NCBI RefSeq assembly: GCF_000021985.1
Contig: NC_011901.1
Location: 2,738,501-2,802,500, forward strand
Direction: 5' to 3'
From: Thioalkalivibrio sulfidiphilus HL-EbGr7
GTDB lineage: Bacteria; Pseudomonadota; Gammaproteobacteria; Ectothiorhodospirales; Ectothiorhodospiraceae
Length of the DNA: 64,000 bases
Position numbers and translations under genes: made by a program. Below, one piece after another: positions 38,216 to 46,050 of the stretch. Numbering within the stretch: position 1 is the first letter of the stretch; each line of letters opens with the position of its first letter. A model generated the notes under the pieces. The model did no database searches and was not told where the DNA came from. It saw only the letters and a program-made list of their open reading frames with translations.

Positions 38216-38860
38216 ATGCCCCGGTCAGGCGCCCCCACCCGCCGGATTCCTCTCCTCTCCAGCTTCTTGTATCGTGTCTCGGCGCCCAAACCCGACACCC
38301 CGGTGACCGATCCCAACCCTGATCTGGAAAAACTGCTCTCCGCCTGTGCTCTGGGTGACCGGGACGCGTTTCAGCGGCTGTACCTGGCCACCTCGCCGAA
38401 ACTCTTTGGCATCGCCGTGCGTATATTGGGGAGCGAGGCCCAGGCGGAGGAGTGTCTGCAGGACGCCTATGTGAAGATCTGGCAGCGGGCCGGGGACTAC
38501 CGACCCCATCTGGCCAGCCCGGTCACCTGGCTGGTGACCATCGTGCGCAACGGTGCCCTGGACCGCCTGCGTCGCAACCGTCGCCAGCTGGAGCTGGCCG
38601 ACCCCGCCCACCTGGAATTCCTCATGGACGAACATGCCACGGCCCCGGGCCCGGCCGGCGAGGAGAGCGATGCCGTTCTGCTCAGGGAGTGCCTCAAGCA
38701 GCTGCGCGAAGACCAGCGGCGCTGCATCGAGATCGCCTATTTTGAAGGACTGAGCCATGGCGAAGTGGCCGAGCGCACCGGCAATGCGCTGGGCACGGTC
38801 AAGACCTGGATACGTCGCGGACTGCAGGAATTGAGGAGGTGTCTCGATGCCTCAGTCTGA
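38216..38860 (+). CDS. ECF RNA polymerase sigma factor
   Basis: Up to 214 residues. Region 2 around residues 40-105 (DAFQRLYLATSPKLFGIAVRILG, DAYVKIWQRAGDYRP, TWLVTIVRNGALDRLRR) and region 4 around 155-210 (DQRRCIEIAYFEGLSHGEVAERTGNALGTVKTWIRRGLQELR). The first ~29 residues are not sigma-like; a GTG at 38303 gives a more usual length (185). Followed 21 bp later by its membrane anti-sigma factor and then by the HvfA-like precursor, so a copper- or stress-responsive role is plausible. Confidence 0.88.
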   Translation: MPRSGAPTRRIPLLSSFLYRVSAPKPDTPVTDPNPDLEKLLSACALGDRDAFQRLYLATSPKLFGIAVRILGSEAQAEECLQDAYVKIWQRAGDYRPHLASPVTWLVTIVRNGALDRLRRNRRQLELADPAHLEFLMDEHATAPGPAGEESDAVLLRECLKQLREDQRRCIEIAYFEGLSHGEVAERTGNALGTVKTWIRRGLQELRRCLDASV

Positions 38861-38881: not shown

Positions 38882-39580
38882 ATGAACTACAAGCATCCCG
38901 AACTCCGTGAGCGCCTGTCAGCCGAGTACGCCCTGGGCACCCTGCGTGGCGCCGCACGGCGCCGCTTTGAGCGACTCATGGCCCGGGACAGCGAGCTGAG
39001 CGCCCGGGTGGCGGCCTGGGAGGAGCGCCTGGCCCACATGGCCTGGAGCAGCGCACCCGTGGTCCGGGTCCCTGATCGCAACTGGTCGGCCATCCAGCAG
39101 CGGATTCAGCCCATGCCCAACAGGCAGCGCCCGGGTCTGTGGAACAGCCTGGCCTTCTGGCGCGGACTGGGTATGGTCGCCTCCGTCCTGGCCGTGGTCC
39201 TGCTCATCCTGCCAGGGCCACAGCCATCCGCGCCGGATGCCATGCCCGAACGTGTCGCCATGGTGACGGAGGCTGGCAGCGAATCCGCAAGCTGGCTCAT
39301 CACCGCTGCCGCAGGTGGCCAACAGATCATGGCCCGCGCCATATCCCCACCGGCCATGCCCGAGGGTGAGGTGTGTGTCCTATGGCTGGTATGGCCCGAC
39401 GGCGCAGTGCGCGCCATCGGCGTATTGCCCGAAGAAGGGGAGATGAGATTGCCCATGCCCGCCATGGACAGACAGCCCTATCAGGCACAGGTCGCCGTCA
39501 CCATCGAACGCAGCAGTGAGCTGCCCATGACCCGCCCTGCCGGACCCAAGGTGTTTTCCGGCCCCTGGATGCAGCTGTAA
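38882..39580 (+). CDS. RskA-type membrane anti-sigma factor
   Basis: 232 residues. N-terminal cytoplasmic helical domain (RERLSAEYALGTLRGAARRRFERLMARD), one TM segment at about 92-112 (RGLGMVASVLAVVLLILP) and a periplasmic RskA-like domain ending 'AQVAVTIERSSELPMTRPAGPKVFSGPW'. The C-terminal 'TRPAGPxVFSG' ending is typical of anti-sigma-K-type proteins. It should hold the adjacent ECF factor at the membrane. Confidence 0.88.
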   Translation: MNYKHPELRERLSAEYALGTLRGAARRRFERLMARDSELSARVAAWEERLAHMAWSSAPVVRVPDRNWSAIQQRIQPMPNRQRPGLWNSLAFWRGLGMVASVLAVVLLILPGPQPSAPDAMPERVAMVTEAGSESASWLITAAAGGQQIMARAISPPAMPEGEVCVLWLVWPDGAVRAIGVLPEEGEMRLPMPAMDRQPYQAQVAVTIERSSELPMTRPAGPKVFSGPWMQL

Positions 39581-39703
39581 GCATCCAGAAAATAGCTTCC
39601 ACTACCTGAATCCGCCAGACAACGCCACGCGTATCATCCAGTGACTCGATCGGCCTGAGGCATCGGGTCACGACCTCACTATCCAAAGAGAAGGAGCAAG
39701 ATC

Positions 39704-40057
39704 ATGTCCAACAACATTCGCAAGCCCCTCGGCGCCGCCGCCCTGGGCGCCCTGTTCGTCGGTTCCCTGGCAGCAGCCCCCATGGCCAGCGCAGTCGAGA
39801 ACCCCTTCGGCATGCAAAGCCTTCAGAGCGGCTACGCCGTGGCCAACAACCACGCGCGCGGCGGTGAGGGCCGTTGTGGCGAGGGTCGCTGTGGTGGTTC
39901 GGCCACTCAGCAGCAGGAGCAGCAGCAGGAACAGAAGGGCCGCGAAGGCAAGTGCGGCGAGGGCCGTTGCGGCGGTGCTGCCGCAGGCGACACGAAACAG
40001 GAACAGCAGAAGACCCAGGAGGGCAAGTGTGGCGAGGGCCGTTGCGGCAGCCGCTGA
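39704..40057 (+). CDS. hvfA: HvfA-type RiPP precursor with EG(R/K)CGEGRCG repeats
   Basis: 117 residues. Signal-type N terminus (residues 1-30, AAALGALFVGSLAAAPMASA), the leader motif VENPFGMQSLQSGYAVAN (31-48), then three core units EGRCGEGRCG (55-64), EGKCGEGRCG (81-90) and EGKCGEGRCG (106-115), separated by Gln/Glu-rich spacers. Its only Cys are the six in these units (58, 63, 84, 89, 109, 114). HvfA-type peptides carry such EGKCG motifs, which a DUF692 (MNIO) enzyme converts to copper-binding groups. GGAG precedes the ATG and a terminator follows at 40099. The matching enzyme and partner are at 44435-46050. Confidence 0.9.
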   Translation: MSNNIRKPLGAAALGALFVGSLAAAPMASAVENPFGMQSLQSGYAVANNHARGGEGRCGEGRCGGSATQQQEQQQEQKGREGKCGEGRCGGAAAGDTKQEQQKTQEGKCGEGRCGSR

Positions 40058-40513: not shown

Positions 40514-40621
40514 TCGACCTTCTCAGGCCATACGGCCGTAATACTGCATCCACAGCAGGTTTATCTGCGTACTTACATACGGTGACGACAAACCCGATAC
40601 GGGCTGAGGAGGCATTACGCC

Positions 40622-41083
40622 ATGTGGTTGATTGAACTGACAAGACGGGTGTTCGGCGGACTGGATCAGGCCGGGCAATGGCTTGCGCCGGTGGGACTGA
40701 GACTGTTGCTGGCCTTCGAGTTCGGCCGGGCGGGTCTGGAAAAACTGGGCGGGGACAACTGGTTCGAGTTCATCAAGGATGATTTCATGTTCCCGTTCAA
40801 CATCATCCCGGTGGGCCTGTCCTGGTTCCTGGCCACCTGGACGGAGATCCTGGCCGCCATCGCCCTGATCATCGGCCTGGGCATGCGCTTCGCCGTGATC
40901 TCGCTCATCATCCTGGACATCGTGGCCTGGCACAGCGTGCACGCCGGCAACGGCTACAACGTATGCGACAACGGCTGGCTGCTGCCCCTGTTCTTCCTGG
41001 TCATGCTGGTGACCCTGCTGTTCACGGGCCCGGGCAAACTGAGCGTCGATGCGCTCATCAAGCGGCGCCTCTCCGTCCGCTGA
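40622..41083 (+). CDS. hvfD: DoxX-family membrane protein, HvfD-like
   Basis: 153 residues, four TM segments. Family features: 'GLRLLLAFEFGRAGLEKLGGDNWF', 'SWFLATWTEILAAIALIIGLGMRFA' and a C-terminal TM 'LLPLFFLVMLVTLLF'. DoxX proteins are the usual fourth member (HvfD) of HvfABCD-type loci, where they may deliver reductant or help at the membrane. GAGG precedes the ATG. Placement 560 bp after the precursor supports the link. Confidence 0.82.
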   Translation: MWLIELTRRVFGGLDQAGQWLAPVGLRLLLAFEFGRAGLEKLGGDNWFEFIKDDFMFPFNIIPVGLSWFLATWTEILAAIALIIGLGMRFAVISLIILDIVAWHSVHAGNGYNVCDNGWLLPLFFLVMLVTLLFTGPGKLSVDALIKRRLSVR

Positions 41084-42022: not shown

Positions 42023-43531
42023 TTAATGCCCAATTCCGATGTCCTTGCCCTTGTCATGCAGGGCCAGTTTGTCGTGCAGGTCGCCGCTCTCGCCTTCGGG
42101 GCTGAGGACCTCCACCTCGATGCCGTTGCGGCGGAACTTGCTCACCACCTTGTCGATGCCGGCGATGGCGGAGCTGTCCCAGAGCCAGGCATGACGCAGA
42201 TCGATGATCACCTTGTTCACCTTCTCGCTGTAGTCGAAGGCGGCGATGAACTTGTCCACCGCCACGAAGAACAGCTGGCCGTAGAGGTGGTAGGTGCGCA
42301 CCCTGGTGGCTTCATCCAGTTCGCTCTCGATCTGGATGGCCTTGGCGATCTTGCGGGCGAAGAACACCGCGCTCAGGAGCACGCCGGCGAACACCCCCTT
42401 GGCCAGATCGTGGGTGATCACCACCACGGCCACGGTGACGATCAACACCGTGGCGTCGGTACGCGGCAGGCGGCGCAGACTGGGGATGGAGCGCCAGTCG
42501 AAGGTGGCGAAGGAGACAAACAGCATCACCGCCACCAGTGCGGCCATGGGGATCATGGACACCACGTCGCCCAGTACCACGATGAGGAACAGCAGGAACA
42601 CGCCCGCCGAGAGCGTCGAGAGACGCCCCTGTCCGCCGGATTTCACGTTGATCACCGACTGGCCGATCATGGCGCAGCCGGCCATGCCGCCCAGGAAACC
42701 GGTGGCGATGTTGGCGATGCCCTGGCCCTGGGCCTCGCGGTTCTTGTCGCTGGGAGTGTCGGTGAAATCGTCCACGATGGATGCGGTGAGCAGGGATTCC
42801 AGCAGACCCACCAGGGCCAGGGCCACGGCGGTGGGCAGGATGATCTGCAGGGTGTCCAGATTCAGGGGCACGTCCGGCAGCAGGAAGACCGGCAGGCCAT
42901 CGGGCAGGTCGCCCATGTCTCCCACGCTGAGCGTCGGCATGCCGCCGAAGATCACCACCAGGGTCAGCACCACCAGTGCCACCAGCGGCGGCGGCAGGGA
43001 CTTGGGATAGGCCGGGATCATGGGCAGGCCGTAGATGATGGCGAGCCCCGCGCCCACCAGGAGCCACATGGTGACATCACCGTCGATCAGATAAGGGACC
43101 TGAGACAGGAAGATGAGGATGGCCAGCGCGTTGACGAAGCCGACCATCACCGTGTGGGGGATGAACATCATGTAACGGGCCAGCTTGAGCCAGGCAAACA
43201 GCACCTGGAGCAGGCCCGTAAGGATGGTCGCAGCCAGCAGGTATTGCAGTCCGTGCTCCGCCACCAGGGTGACCATGAGCAGGGCCATGGCGCCGGTGGC
43301 CGCCGAGATCATGCCCGGGCGGCCGCCGGCAAAGGCGATGACCACCGCCATGGAGAAGGAGGCATACAGACCCACCTTGGGGTCGAGACCGGCGATGATG
43401 GAAAAGGCGATGGCCTCGGGAATGAGCGCGAGCGCGACCATGATGCCCGCAATCAGATCGCCCCGCACATTGAAAAACCACACCCGGCGGGTCGATGACC
43501 AAGCCCGGCGGATCCTGTCCGAAATGTCCAC
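42023..43531 (-). CDS. SulP-family anion transporter with STAS domain
   Basis: 502 residues. 10-12 TM helices with '[37 protein letters not shown]' near the N terminus and '[26 protein letters not shown]' in the middle, then a C-terminal STAS domain (about 405-495, '[23 protein letters not shown]'). SulP proteins move sulfate, bicarbonate or other anions. Substrate unresolved; in a sulfur-metabolising organism either is plausible. Confidence 0.92.
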
Positions 43532-43848
43532 GGACTCGCCCTCTGGAGAAATGAATTCAGGTCACGACCATCTGCGGCAAGCGATGCGACGCGCATTACT
43601 GGTGGTTCGATCCGGATGGATCCAGCGAAGAGCCGACCGGCATCAACTTCTGGCCAGCCTGTCTGTAGCGGGAAAGGTTTAGAACCCGGTGTGGCGTCGG
43701 CCAGCATGGGCAGACGCGCATTTGTTATGATGCGGGTATCCGACTATCGAGGGGCTGTATTCTATCGGCCAGCCCCGGGCCCATCAAGGCAAGGCCATCC
43801 CATCACGAGCCGGCGTCCACGCCGTCCTGACCATTGCAGGGGAAAAAC
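43532..43848. other. Divergent intergenic region, no gene seen
   Basis: 317 bases between the SulP gene (minus) and the universal stress protein gene (plus). It must hold both promoters; a TATGAT at about 43724 could serve as a -10 for the plus-strand gene. No repeat or convincing small open frame seen. Confidence 0.45.
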
Positions 43849-44301
43849 ATGCTGCGTCGCGTCCTGATTCCTGTGGATTTCTCGTCCGCCTCCGCCGAGG
43901 CCCTGGCGGTGGCCCGCCAGTACTGCCCCGGGGGCGTGAAGCGCCTGCTGCACGTGATCCAGCCCAAGGACCTGGCCCAGTCCAACAGCGGTTCCCCCAT
44001 CCACGCCAAGGACAGCCGCCGCGCCCTGGAGGAACAGATACTGGAAAAACTGCGCAGCTGGGCCCTGAACGACGACGAGGTGGCCTTCGCCGTGGGCAGC
44101 CCCGCCGACGCCATCATGCAGCACGCCGAGGAATGGCAGGCGGACCTGATCGTCATGGGCACCCGAGGACGCGGCACCCTGGCCAACTTCCTGTCCGGCT
44201 CCGCCACGGAATACCTGGTGCGCCACGCCAGGCTGCCCATCCTGGTGGTGCACGACGTGCCCATCGACTCGGCCACGGCCTGCCAGTTGCCGCCGAAGTG
44301 A
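43849..44301 (+). CDS. Universal stress protein (UspA family, ATP-binding type)
   Basis: 150 residues with 'RVLIPVDFSSASAEAL' at the start and the ATP-binding signature GTRGRGTLANFLSGSA (G-2x-G-9x-G-S). Start at 43849 follows AGGGGAA; upstream codons in frame lack one. Lies just upstream of the DUF692 gene, separated by a perfect inverted repeat. Confidence 0.9.
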   Translation: MLRRVLIPVDFSSASAEALAVARQYCPGGVKRLLHVIQPKDLAQSNSGSPIHAKDSRRALEEQILEKLRSWALNDDEVAFAVGSPADAIMQHAEEWQADLIVMGTRGRGTLANFLSGSATEYLVRHARLPILVVHDVPIDSATACQLPPK

Positions 44302-44315
44302 GCAAATACAATTCA

Positions 44316-44364
44316 AGATTCAAGATTCAAAGGCGGGTGCCACCCGCCTTTGAATCTTGAATCT
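44316..44364. repeat. Perfect 24-bp inverted repeat 'AGATTCAAGATTCAAAGGCG'
   Basis: Arms at 44316-44339 and 44341-44364, single-base loop. The tail words 'attcaagattcaa' recur at 59404-59515. May act as a terminator-like barrier between the stress protein gene and the DUF692 gene. Confidence 0.75.
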
Positions 44365-44434
44365 GGTTTCATCGCATCCACTCGCCCATCTCGCCCGTAT
44401 CCTGAATAGAACCCATCACTGACGGACTACACCC

Positions 44435-45280
44435 ATGTCAGACATCCGATCCTCAGGCGTGCGCCATGCCGTTCAAGGAGCCGGTCTGGGACTGCGCCGG
44501 GATCTGATGAAAGAACTGCAGACCGCCGCCCCCGGGCGGGTGGATTTCATGGAGGTGGCACCGGAGAACTGGATTGGCGTGGGCGGTGCCATGGGCCGGC
44601 AGTTTCGCGCCTTCACAGAGCGTTACCCCTTCGTCTGTCATGGCCTGTCCCTGTCCATCGGCAGCCCTGCCCCCCTGGACGAGGCCCTGCTGCACGACAT
44701 CCGGGACTTCCTGGACACGCACGGCATCGATCTCTACACGGAGCACCTCTCCTACTGCTCCGATGACGGGCACCTCTACGACCTGCTGCCCATCCCCTTC
44801 ACCGAAGAGGCCGTGCACTACGTGGCCGGACGGGTAAGCCGCGCCCAGGACATCCTGGGACGGCGCATCGCCCTGGAAAACGCCTCCTACTACGCCAGTA
44901 TCGGGGCCGAGATGAGCGAACTGGAATTCATCAACGCCGTGCTCGCGGAGGCCGACTGCAACCTGCTGCTGGACGTGAACAACGTCTACGTCAACAGCGT
45001 GAACCACGCTTACGACCCGGTGAACTTTCTCAGGGGACTGCCCGGCGAGCGCATCGTTTATGCCCATGTGGCCGGGCACTACAAGGAGGCCGAGGATCTG
45101 ATCGTGGACACTCACGGTGCGGACGTGATCGACCCGGTCTGGTCCCTGCTCGACACCGCCTACCGACATTTCGGCGTGTTCCCCACCCTGCTGGAGCGGG
45201 ATTTCAATTTCCCGCCGGTTGAGCGCCTGCTGGCTGAGGTGGACACCATTCGCCGCATCCAGACAGGGGCGTGGCGCTGA
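44435..45280 (+). CDS. hvfB: DUF692 multinuclear iron oxidase (MNIO), HvfB/BufB type
   Basis: 281 residues. Family metal ligands are all visible: [72 protein letters not shown] and [13 protein letters not shown]692 enzymes hold two or three iron atoms in a TIM barrel and rearrange Cys residues of peptide substrates; HvfB/BufB act on Cys-rich secreted peptides such as the one at 39704. The stop codon overlaps the start of the DUF2063 partner (ATGA), so the pair is translationally coupled. Confidence 0.9.
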
Positions 45281-46050
45281 TGTCGGAACCGCGTTTCCAG
45301 CAGCTGCAACGGGCACTCACCGCGCACTTGCGTGACCCCGAAGGCCATCCGCCGCCGGAGGTCGTTGAGGAGCGGCGCATCCGGGTCTACCGGGAACTGA
45401 TCTACAACAACGTGGAAGGATTTCTGCGCAACGGCTTCCCGGTCATCCGCAGCCTCTACGACGACACGTCCTGGCACGCCCTGGTGCGGGATTTCCTGCG
45501 CAGCCACCGGGCCCACACCCCCTACTTCCTGGAGATCGGCCGGGAGTTCGTGGCCTGGCTGCAGGACGTGCGCACCTCCCAGGGCGAAGACCCCCCGTTT
45601 CTCGCGGAACTGGCCCATTACGAATACATGGAAGTGGCCCTCAGCGTGGCCGAGGCCCCGCCGGACTGGGTGCCCGCGGCAGAACAGGACGATCTGCTGG
45701 AGATCCGCCCGACCCTCTCCCCCCTAGCCTGGCTGCTGGGGTATCGCTTCCCGGTGCACCGCATCGGCGCGGACCATCGCCCCGAACAGGCTTCGCAGAC
45801 ACCCCATCACCTGCTGGTGCACCGCACGCCACAGGATGGCATCGCCTTTCTGGAACTCAACCCGGTGACCGCCCACCTGGTGTACCTGATCCAGAACAAT
45901 CAAGACCGCACGGCGCGGAGCCTGCTGGAACAGATAACAGGGGAACTGGGACATGCCGATCCGCAGGTGGTGATCCAGGGTGGCCTGGAGATCCTGGAGG
46001 AACTTCGTGGGCGGGAGGTGCTAGGAAGGATGAATGGAAGTGGGAAGTGA
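45280..46050 (+). CDS. hvfC: DUF2063 partner protein, HvfC/BufC type
   Basis: 256 residues. N-terminal DUF2063 domain (about 1-100): 'FQQLQRALTAHLRDP', 'RRIRVYRELIYNNVEGFLRNGFPVIRSLYDDTSWHALVRDFL', 'THSPYF-like' HTPYFLEIGREFV; a second C-terminal domain about 150-250. These partners bind the leader of the precursor and present it to the DUF692 enzyme. ATG at 45280 overlaps the upstream TGA; a GTG at 45271 is possible but unneeded. Confidence 0.88.
   Translation: MSEPRFQQLQRALTAHLRDPEGHPPPEVVEERRIRVYRELIYNNVEGFLRNGFPVIRSLYDDTSWHALVRDFLRSHRAHTPYFLEIGREFVAWLQDVRTSQGEDPPFLAELAHYEYMEVALSVAEAPPDWVPAAEQDDLLEIRPTLSPLAWLLGYRFPVHRIGADHRPEQASQTPHHLLVHRTPQDGIAFLELNPVTAHLVYLIQNNQDRTARSLLEQITGELGHADPQVVIQGGLEILEELRGREVLGRMNGSGK

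Follow-up and report, generated by a model that had tools for sequence, protein, structure and literature searches.

An HvfA-type precursor with Arg-bearing EGxCG motifs and a putative ECF sigma factor switch in Thioalkalivibrio sulfidiphilus HL-EbGr7

Thioalkalivibrio sulfidiphilus HL-EbGr7 is a sulfur-oxidising haloalkaliphile that comes from a reactor for biogas desulfurisation (PMC3072093). Within a stretch of 64,000 nucleotides of its genome (NC_011901.1, positions 2,738,501–2,802,500; the window hereafter), a short ORF encodes a peptide with six Cys in EGxCG motifs, most of which carry Arg at the place where described HvfA peptides carry Lys. The locus raises the question whether this peptide is a precursor of the HvfA (oxazolin/captophorin) type, and whether its Arg motifs, its paired Cys or the wiring of its genes set it apart from known members. 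The features discussed are listed in Table 1.

Table 1. Features at the hvf locus of T. sulfidiphilus HL-EbGr7 (positions in the window)
Feature	Position	Strand	Basis
ECF sigma factor (Sigma70_r2, Sigma70_r4_2)	38216..38860	+	Domain matches; order kept in L034, L035, L036
Anti-sigma factor, RskA_C domain	38882..39580	+	PF10099 E=3.3e-18
Predicted ECF promoter of hvfA, GAATCC-N16-CGTA	39608..39633	+	
hvfA-type precursor, 117 aa, six Cys	39704..40057	+	Translation; NF050137, NF050188 scores
Sec signal peptide-like N-terminus, residues 1-30, ...PMASA / VENPF	39704..39793	+	By eye from sequence
Core unit 1, EGRCGEGRCG, residues 55-64	39866..39895	+	
Core unit 2, EGKCGEGRCG, residues 81-90	39944..39973	+	
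Core unit 3, EGKCGEGRCG, residues 106-115	40019..40048	+	
Predicted ECF promoter of hvfX, GCATCC-N16-CGTA	40546..40571	+	
hvfX, DoxX-family RiPP maturation protein	40622..41083	+	NF050144 122.7 bits vs cut-off 80; PF07681
Predicted ECF promoter of hvfBC, GCATCC-N16-CGTA	44374..44399	+	
hvfB, MNIO (DUF692) maturase; pocket R21 R22 D256 F257	44435..45280	+	NF003818 448.3 bits vs 360; 3BWW E=5.6e-77
hvfC, DUF2063/PME1 partner	45271..46050	+	NF050145 302.2 bits vs cut-off 142; 3DEE E=2.9e-13

Translation of the ORF bore out what an earlier note had read from the letters: the six Cys of the product (positions 58, 63, 84, 89, 109, and 114) form three pairs five residues apart, no Cys is found elsewhere, the linkers between the core units are Gln/Glu-rich, and Arg stands for Lys in four of the six motifs (codons CGT/CGC/CGT/CGT for Arg versus AAG twice for Lys). 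The motif order is EGRCG-EGRCG, EGKCG-EGRCG, EGKCG-EGRCG; in every pair the second motif is the Arg form. When residues 32–117 were shuffled 200,000 times, none of the shuffles contained both the six Cys-Gly steps and three five-residue Cys pairs; taken singly, all six Cys-Gly steps occurred in 13 shuffles and three five-residue pairs in 328. The ORF overlaps other mechanically called ORFs on both strands, and the family searches at this place were made in the frame of the 117-aa ORF only.

The peptide was shown to match the HvfA repeat model of NCBIfam, NF050137, in two stretches with 42.2 bits (cut-off 19.5). With the strict HvfA equivalog model NF050188 it scored 36.9 bits, which is under the cut-off of 95, and this cut-off was reached by none of nine relatives scanned (79.5 and 68.7 bits for the all-Lys precursors of loci L051 and L060); the peptide was therefore placed in the wider HvfA/EGKCG family and not in the HvfA equivalog. 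No Pfam match was found up to E 0.1. Judged from its sequence, the peptide is an ordinary HvfA (oxazolin/captophorin) member, i.e., a small, presumably exported Cys-rich RiPP precursor. The three paired-Cys units to which the earlier note had drawn attention are not new, since three EGKCGEGKCG pairs with six Cys are the layout of Haemophilus HvfA (PMC13419390). Relative to that layout the novelty is modest and consists of the Arg-for-Lys variation and a likely stress-sigma switch common to peptide and enzymes.

Precursor matches were found in 19 of 47 genomes of the GTDB family, HL-EbGr7 included; the order-level search took in the same 47 genomes. On class level, 107 of the 369 genomes sampled gave a match, again including HL-EbGr7. 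The family set comprised 19 loci from 18 genomes (L033 and L034 both from G043), all of which carry a precursor. The precursor of L033 resembles those of genus g4, and L033 is perhaps a contaminant in G043, while the precursors of L034 and L035 are identical save for the chosen start. Matches to hvfB and hvfC were present in 18 of the 19 family loci, the exception being L034, a contig of 6.9 kb, and hvfX was matched in nine, strongly in L032, L035, and L036 and weakly in the other six. A separate search for related loci with the peptide as query yielded no confirmed relative.

In HL-EbGr7, the genes around hvfA encode an ECF sigma factor, an RskA_C anti-sigma factor, HvfX/DoxX, a DUF1841 protein, SulP, Usp, HvfB, and HvfC, and hvfBC lies 4.4 kb from hvfA with the DUF1841, SulP, and Usp genes in between. 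The SulP transporter and Usp genes were located at 42023–44301, between the DUF1841 gene and hvfB. The order in T. denitrificans (L032) is hvfA, hvfX, DUF1841, hvfB, hvfC; L035 has the same order with a sigma/anti-sigma pair ahead, and L036 (G011, another genus) has sigma, anti-sigma, hvfA, DUF1841, hvfX, hvfB, hvfC. Neither L032 nor L035 gave a SulP or Usp match. Among 30 class loci (L051–L080, flanks of 1.5 kb where the contig allowed), an nth match was found beside the precursor in 14 and a DUF1841 match in 10. Given these neighbours and the gene orders of the relatives, the chromosomal place looks old, and the SulP and Usp genes would appear to have been inserted in the HL-EbGr7 strain.

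A genome-wide search of HL-EbGr7 found one MNIO and one HvfA-type precursor, and no second copy of either elsewhere in the genome; HvfBC is thus the candidate modifier, if the peptide is modified. In the related enzyme FonB, R15/R16 are placed at the motif residue Glu1 and F250 at Lys3/Gly5 of the motif, and D249 is the proposed base (PMC12668002). These residues were equated with the pocket residues of HvfB (Table 1) by the local motifs LRRD and ERDF rather than from the FonB sequence. With its equivalog score above the cut-off and with these pocket residues, HvfB is predicted to belong to the Lys-Cys 5-thiooxazole MNIO group (HvfB/FonB). The RR/DF pocket is conserved in 80 of the 87 loci that have an HvfB-like ORF, a set in which some loci are copies from the same genome; the window and all 18 family loci with HvfB are among the 80. 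The remaining seven showed KRDF (three), RRDL, RGDN, KQDF, and one incomplete pocket. A compensating change was not seen among the four known pocket residues, to which the comparison was confined.

The residue at motif position 3 was then compared among precursors. In the 19 family precursors (126 motifs) it was Thr in 38, Ser in 35, Arg in 20, Ala in 16, Lys in 16, and Asn in one. In the class sample (578 motifs) it was Lys in 521, Ser in 30, Asn in 15, Gln in seven, Arg in two, Thr in two, and Ala in one, a sample that leans to Lys-rich precursors because better-scoring matches were taken. This sample consisted of 70 loci, of which 69 yielded 75 precursors in all (L079 and L168 are from one genome), and was drawn from 69 of the 107 matching genomes, among the matches listed. 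Arg at position 3 is thus rare in the class sample, but falls within a wider drift away from Lys in the GTDB family. Of 59 family pairs, 46 have Ser or Ala at the first position and 53 have Thr or Arg at the second, preferences that are a description and not a test because related genomes are not independent; 238 of 265 class pairs were Lys-Lys. Relatives of genus g4 (Thioalkalivibrio where named; among L033–L050) were observed often to have Ser or Ala followed by Thr in place of Lys, as in EGSCGEGTCG.

A scan for EG-x-CGEGRCG (x being codon MRN) gave 43 stretches. HvfA-like precursors with a signal-like start were found in 22 of these (L089, L102, L115, and L118 were already among the known contigs), 18 of which had an hvfB-like match in the flank (exceptions L101, L104, L118, and L121). 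The remaining 21 stretches comprised five repetitive ORFs without a signal-like start and 16 without an ORF of three motifs. Arg in the second motif was accordingly found in other Gammaproteobacteria too, and Arg use unique to HL-EbGr7 was ruled out. In the comparison of Arg/Lys use and repeat number with HvfA-like peptides that the earlier note had proposed, Arg was rare in the class sample and not restricted to this strain; many relatives were found to have odd motif numbers.

As to function, HvfC is reported to be needed for the active mixed-valent state of HvfB, and each Cys to be converted to a 5-thiooxazole (−4 Da) in a product that binds copper (PMC13419390; PMC12668002). H. influenzae HvfA has three AEGKCGEGKCG motifs, of which HvfBC oxidises the six Cys, about five in vitro (PMC13419390). 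By likeness to these systems, we infer that cytoplasmic HvfC would bind the unprocessed HL-EbGr7 peptide, that HvfB as a mixed-valent diiron oxidase would convert its Cys to 5-thiooxazoles by four-electron oxidation, and that the modified peptide would be exported by Sec to the periplasm, where the multi-thiolate product could bind Cu(I) and thereby buffer the metal. At position 3 of the motif, Arg would be a substitution that an HvfB with the usual pocket residues reads and tolerates. This whole reading, an HvfA/oxazolin-type precursor that is modified by HvfBC, exported, Cu(I)-binding, and under ECF control, is in our judgement highly probable.

Its competitors differ in what they take from the same data. 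That the ORF is a stand-alone low-complexity protein or a frame artefact, with no relation to the DUF692 genes at a distance of 4.4 kb, might be read from its Gly/Gln/Glu-rich composition and from hvfX and three other genes standing between hvfA and hvfBC. It is nevertheless contradicted by the NF050137 match, by homologs with similar N-termini, and by synteny, T. denitrificans (L032, the same as L102) having no SulP or Usp match between hvfA and hvfB; we regard it as extremely unlikely. The family model, the relatives' loci and the shuffles rule out a frame artefact or chance origin of the ORF. The family model and the hvfB neighbourhood support the proposal of the earlier note that the ORF encodes a RiPP precursor of HvfA type close to the gene of a DUF692 maturase, and the contrary case that it had named, a common low-complexity protein without a DUF692 link, does not agree with the presence of hvfB in all related loci except the one on a short contig. 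A further possibility is that the Arg motifs are poor substrates, such that HvfBC would modify either no motif or only the two with Lys, and the peptide would act as an unmodified metallothionein-like or thiol-buffering periplasmic protein. The two Arg among 578 class-sample motifs fit this, as does the literature consulted on the HvfA/MNIO class, in which no natural Arg-bearing precursor was found tested; the string EGRCG appeared in a single paper among those searched, one with an unrelated title. However, FonBC is described to accept FonAPE variants in which position 3 is Arg, Ala, or Thr, and to be severely impaired by Phe and Glu there (PMC12668002), and the known HvfB pocket residues are unchanged, so that Arg needs no new chemistry. 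Besides, Arg in the second motif of 3 of 3 pairs here and the Arg or Thr of most family pairs look like constraint, albeit among related genomes, and poor-substrate Arg motifs are in our view improbable.

Another suggestion, compatible with the HvfA-type reading, is that every Cys pair makes up a Cu(I) site of its own, so that one chain would carry three Cu. It draws on the recurrence of the pair as a unit, on the different residues preferred at the two pair positions in the family, and on FonBC, which of two short substrates modified the one with two repeats and not the one with a single repeat (PMC12668002). Against this stand the related products: fontiphorin, as an MBP fusion with seven modified sites, took up as many as four Cu and gonophorin one to two, copper induced large particles with EGKCG products, and the authors suspect stochastic binding (PMC12668002). 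Many relatives have odd motif counts, and an AlphaFold2 model of the unmodified peptide (13 sequences) gave no confident fold (mean pLDDT 48.3, pTM 0.13), a result that says nothing of the modified peptide. Three separate sites thus seem rather unlikely. For the HvfA-type reading, the natural Arg, Thr, Ser, and Ala variants beside enzymes with the same pocket provide a test set for MNIO substrate choice, and also for whether the charge beside the thiooxazole tunes copper affinity.

The order sigma, anti-sigma, hvfA was found in the window, L034, L035, and L036, and the contig of L032 ends short of that place. The anti-sigma factor is presumably membrane-anchored, as judged from its RskA_C domain. 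HMM searches detected the sigma factor in three of the 19 family loci and in two of 40 class loci that had flanks of up to 5 kb, and the anti-sigma factor in three and none of these, respectively; L034–L036 match by construction because the HMMs were built from them. By eye, TGAATCC...CGTA was seen before hvfA in L032, L034, L035, and the window; hvfA of L036 is preceded by a less exact copy, and hvfX and hvfB of the window each have a copy ahead of them as well. The pattern GCATCC-N15-17-CGTA had two matches in the window, before hvfX and hvfB (shuffle mean 0.31; at least two in 5 of 100 shuffles). In the HL-EbGr7 genome, TGMATCC-N15-17-CGTA gave five matches, two of which precede hvfA and hvfX, versus four in the reversed control. 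With a somewhat relaxed pattern, further sites emerged upstream of hvfB in L032 and upstream of both hvfX and hvfB in L035, and GMATCC-N15-17-CGTA added sites before hvfX of L032 and L036. Over the five loci (127,197 bp), this last pattern, which was fixed after some of the sites had been looked at, gave 13 matches, compared with a mean of 1.1 and a maximum of 4 in 40 Markov copies. Twelve of the 13 were correctly oriented and situated 47–105 bp upstream of hvfA, hvfX, or hvfB, the hvfX and hvfB starts of relatives being estimated from tblastn ends, and the spacer was exactly 16 in 11 of 11 listed sites. L032 and L035 are near-identical at hvfB; L036 has sites before hvfA and hvfX only, and hvfX, hvfB, and hvfC adjoin there. 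No copy of the motif was found before the sigma gene itself.

In 85 other loci (684,401 bp, 90 precursors) the motif had 16 matches, five of them before an hvfA (two being one site), and no RskA gene was found in these loci by HMM (55) or tblastn (30). The sites before hvfA in L066, L079/L168, L133, and L167 belong to four class genomes in which no RskA gene was detected nearby, hinting at ECF control in trans. Genome-wide counts versus reversed controls were 21 versus 26 in HL-EbGr7 and 39 versus 36 in G042, with no enrichment, and 46 versus 33 in G045 and 36 versus 18 in G011. The motif was ruled out as a genome-wide regulon finder in HL-EbGr7, and no regulon is claimed beyond the hvf genes because it is not enriched genome-wide in this strain. 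Its placement at hvfA, hvfX, and hvfB, here and in relatives, suggests one predicted regulon for the dispersed hvf locus. The RskA-type anti-sigma factor would hold the ECF sigma factor until envelope or metal stress frees it, and the freed sigma factor would transcribe hvfA, hvfX, and hvfBC from separate promoters of the same type. If this promoter reading holds, it explains the co-expression of a split hvf cluster, and an RskA-type anti-sigma factor joins the ECF switches known for this class in Caulobacter and Haemophilus. Among the papers listed on anti-sigma factors and this class, the main texts of those on MNIO genes did not mention RskA.

A joint reading of the data combines a dispersed oxazolin-type regulon (ECF sigma factor, RskA anti-sigma factor, and three GMATCC-N16-CGTA promoters) with non-equivalent Cys in each pair: the pair would be the unit of both processing and metal binding, its first position drifting to Ser/Ala/Lys and its second to Thr/Arg while the known HvfB pocket residues are unchanged. 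We put this forward tentatively, as a possibility that is somewhat doubtful in this full form.

Compared with known systems, the locus most resembles that of nontypeable H. influenzae, which shares three EGxCGEGxCG pairs, six Cys, and hvfB, hvfC, and hvfX, and has a signal peptide like the putative one of HL-EbGr7 (PMC13419390). A four-gene DoxX-DUF692-DUF2063 cluster of H. influenzae, taken here as hvf from its domains, is RpoE2-dependent (PMC7907618), an ECF control that in HL-EbGr7 is predicted from sequence. HL-EbGr7 differs in its Arg motifs, its Gln/Glu-rich linkers, an hvfBC that does not adjoin, and an RskA_C-type anti-sigma factor in place of the 67-aa cytoplasmic HrsE (PMC7907618). 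The captophorins fontiphorin (FonA) and gonophorin likewise have EGKCG 5-mers read by an MNIO-PME1 pair with an R/R, D/F pocket, whereas FonA has seven modified sites and Arg is there a test variant and here natural (PMC12668002). In a paper covering the Buf_EGKCG/oxazolin family, the sections drawn on here mention sigma/anti-sigma genes in connection with Buf1 clusters (together with NrsF) and not with the Buf_EGKCG group (PMC12452194). The Caulobacter Buf1 operons are similar in the ECF (sigma-F) control of DUF2282-DUF692-DUF2063(-DoxX) via a motif with a 16-bp spacer, GTAACC-N16-CGAA, and differ in precursor family, in a DUF1109 anti-sigma factor, and in promoter hexamers (PMC3511200). Overall, the locus encodes a real family member of ordinary architecture with mild sequence variation and plausibly new regulatory wiring. 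HL-EbGr7 being an environmental sulfur oxidiser, the pathway is open to study outside pathogens.

Some further observations were made on the loci. Tandem precursor ORFs were present at a single locus in L057, L064, and L072, the first ORF of L057 running off the contig. In the precursors of L094, L107, L109, and L123, EF-hand-like DxDxDG segments were seen by eye between EGxCG motifs, which recalls fusions with EF-hands reported in the paper on the MNIO landscape (PMC12452194). An inverted repeat at about 44316–44365, between usp and hvfB, is perfect by eye and terminator-like. Inverted copies of a CCGGTGAGATATGCGGGCT-like element were seen by eye at about 40255 and 40505, between hvfA and hvfX, and a similar stretch was seen by eye before hvfA in L032; the element is perhaps REP-like.
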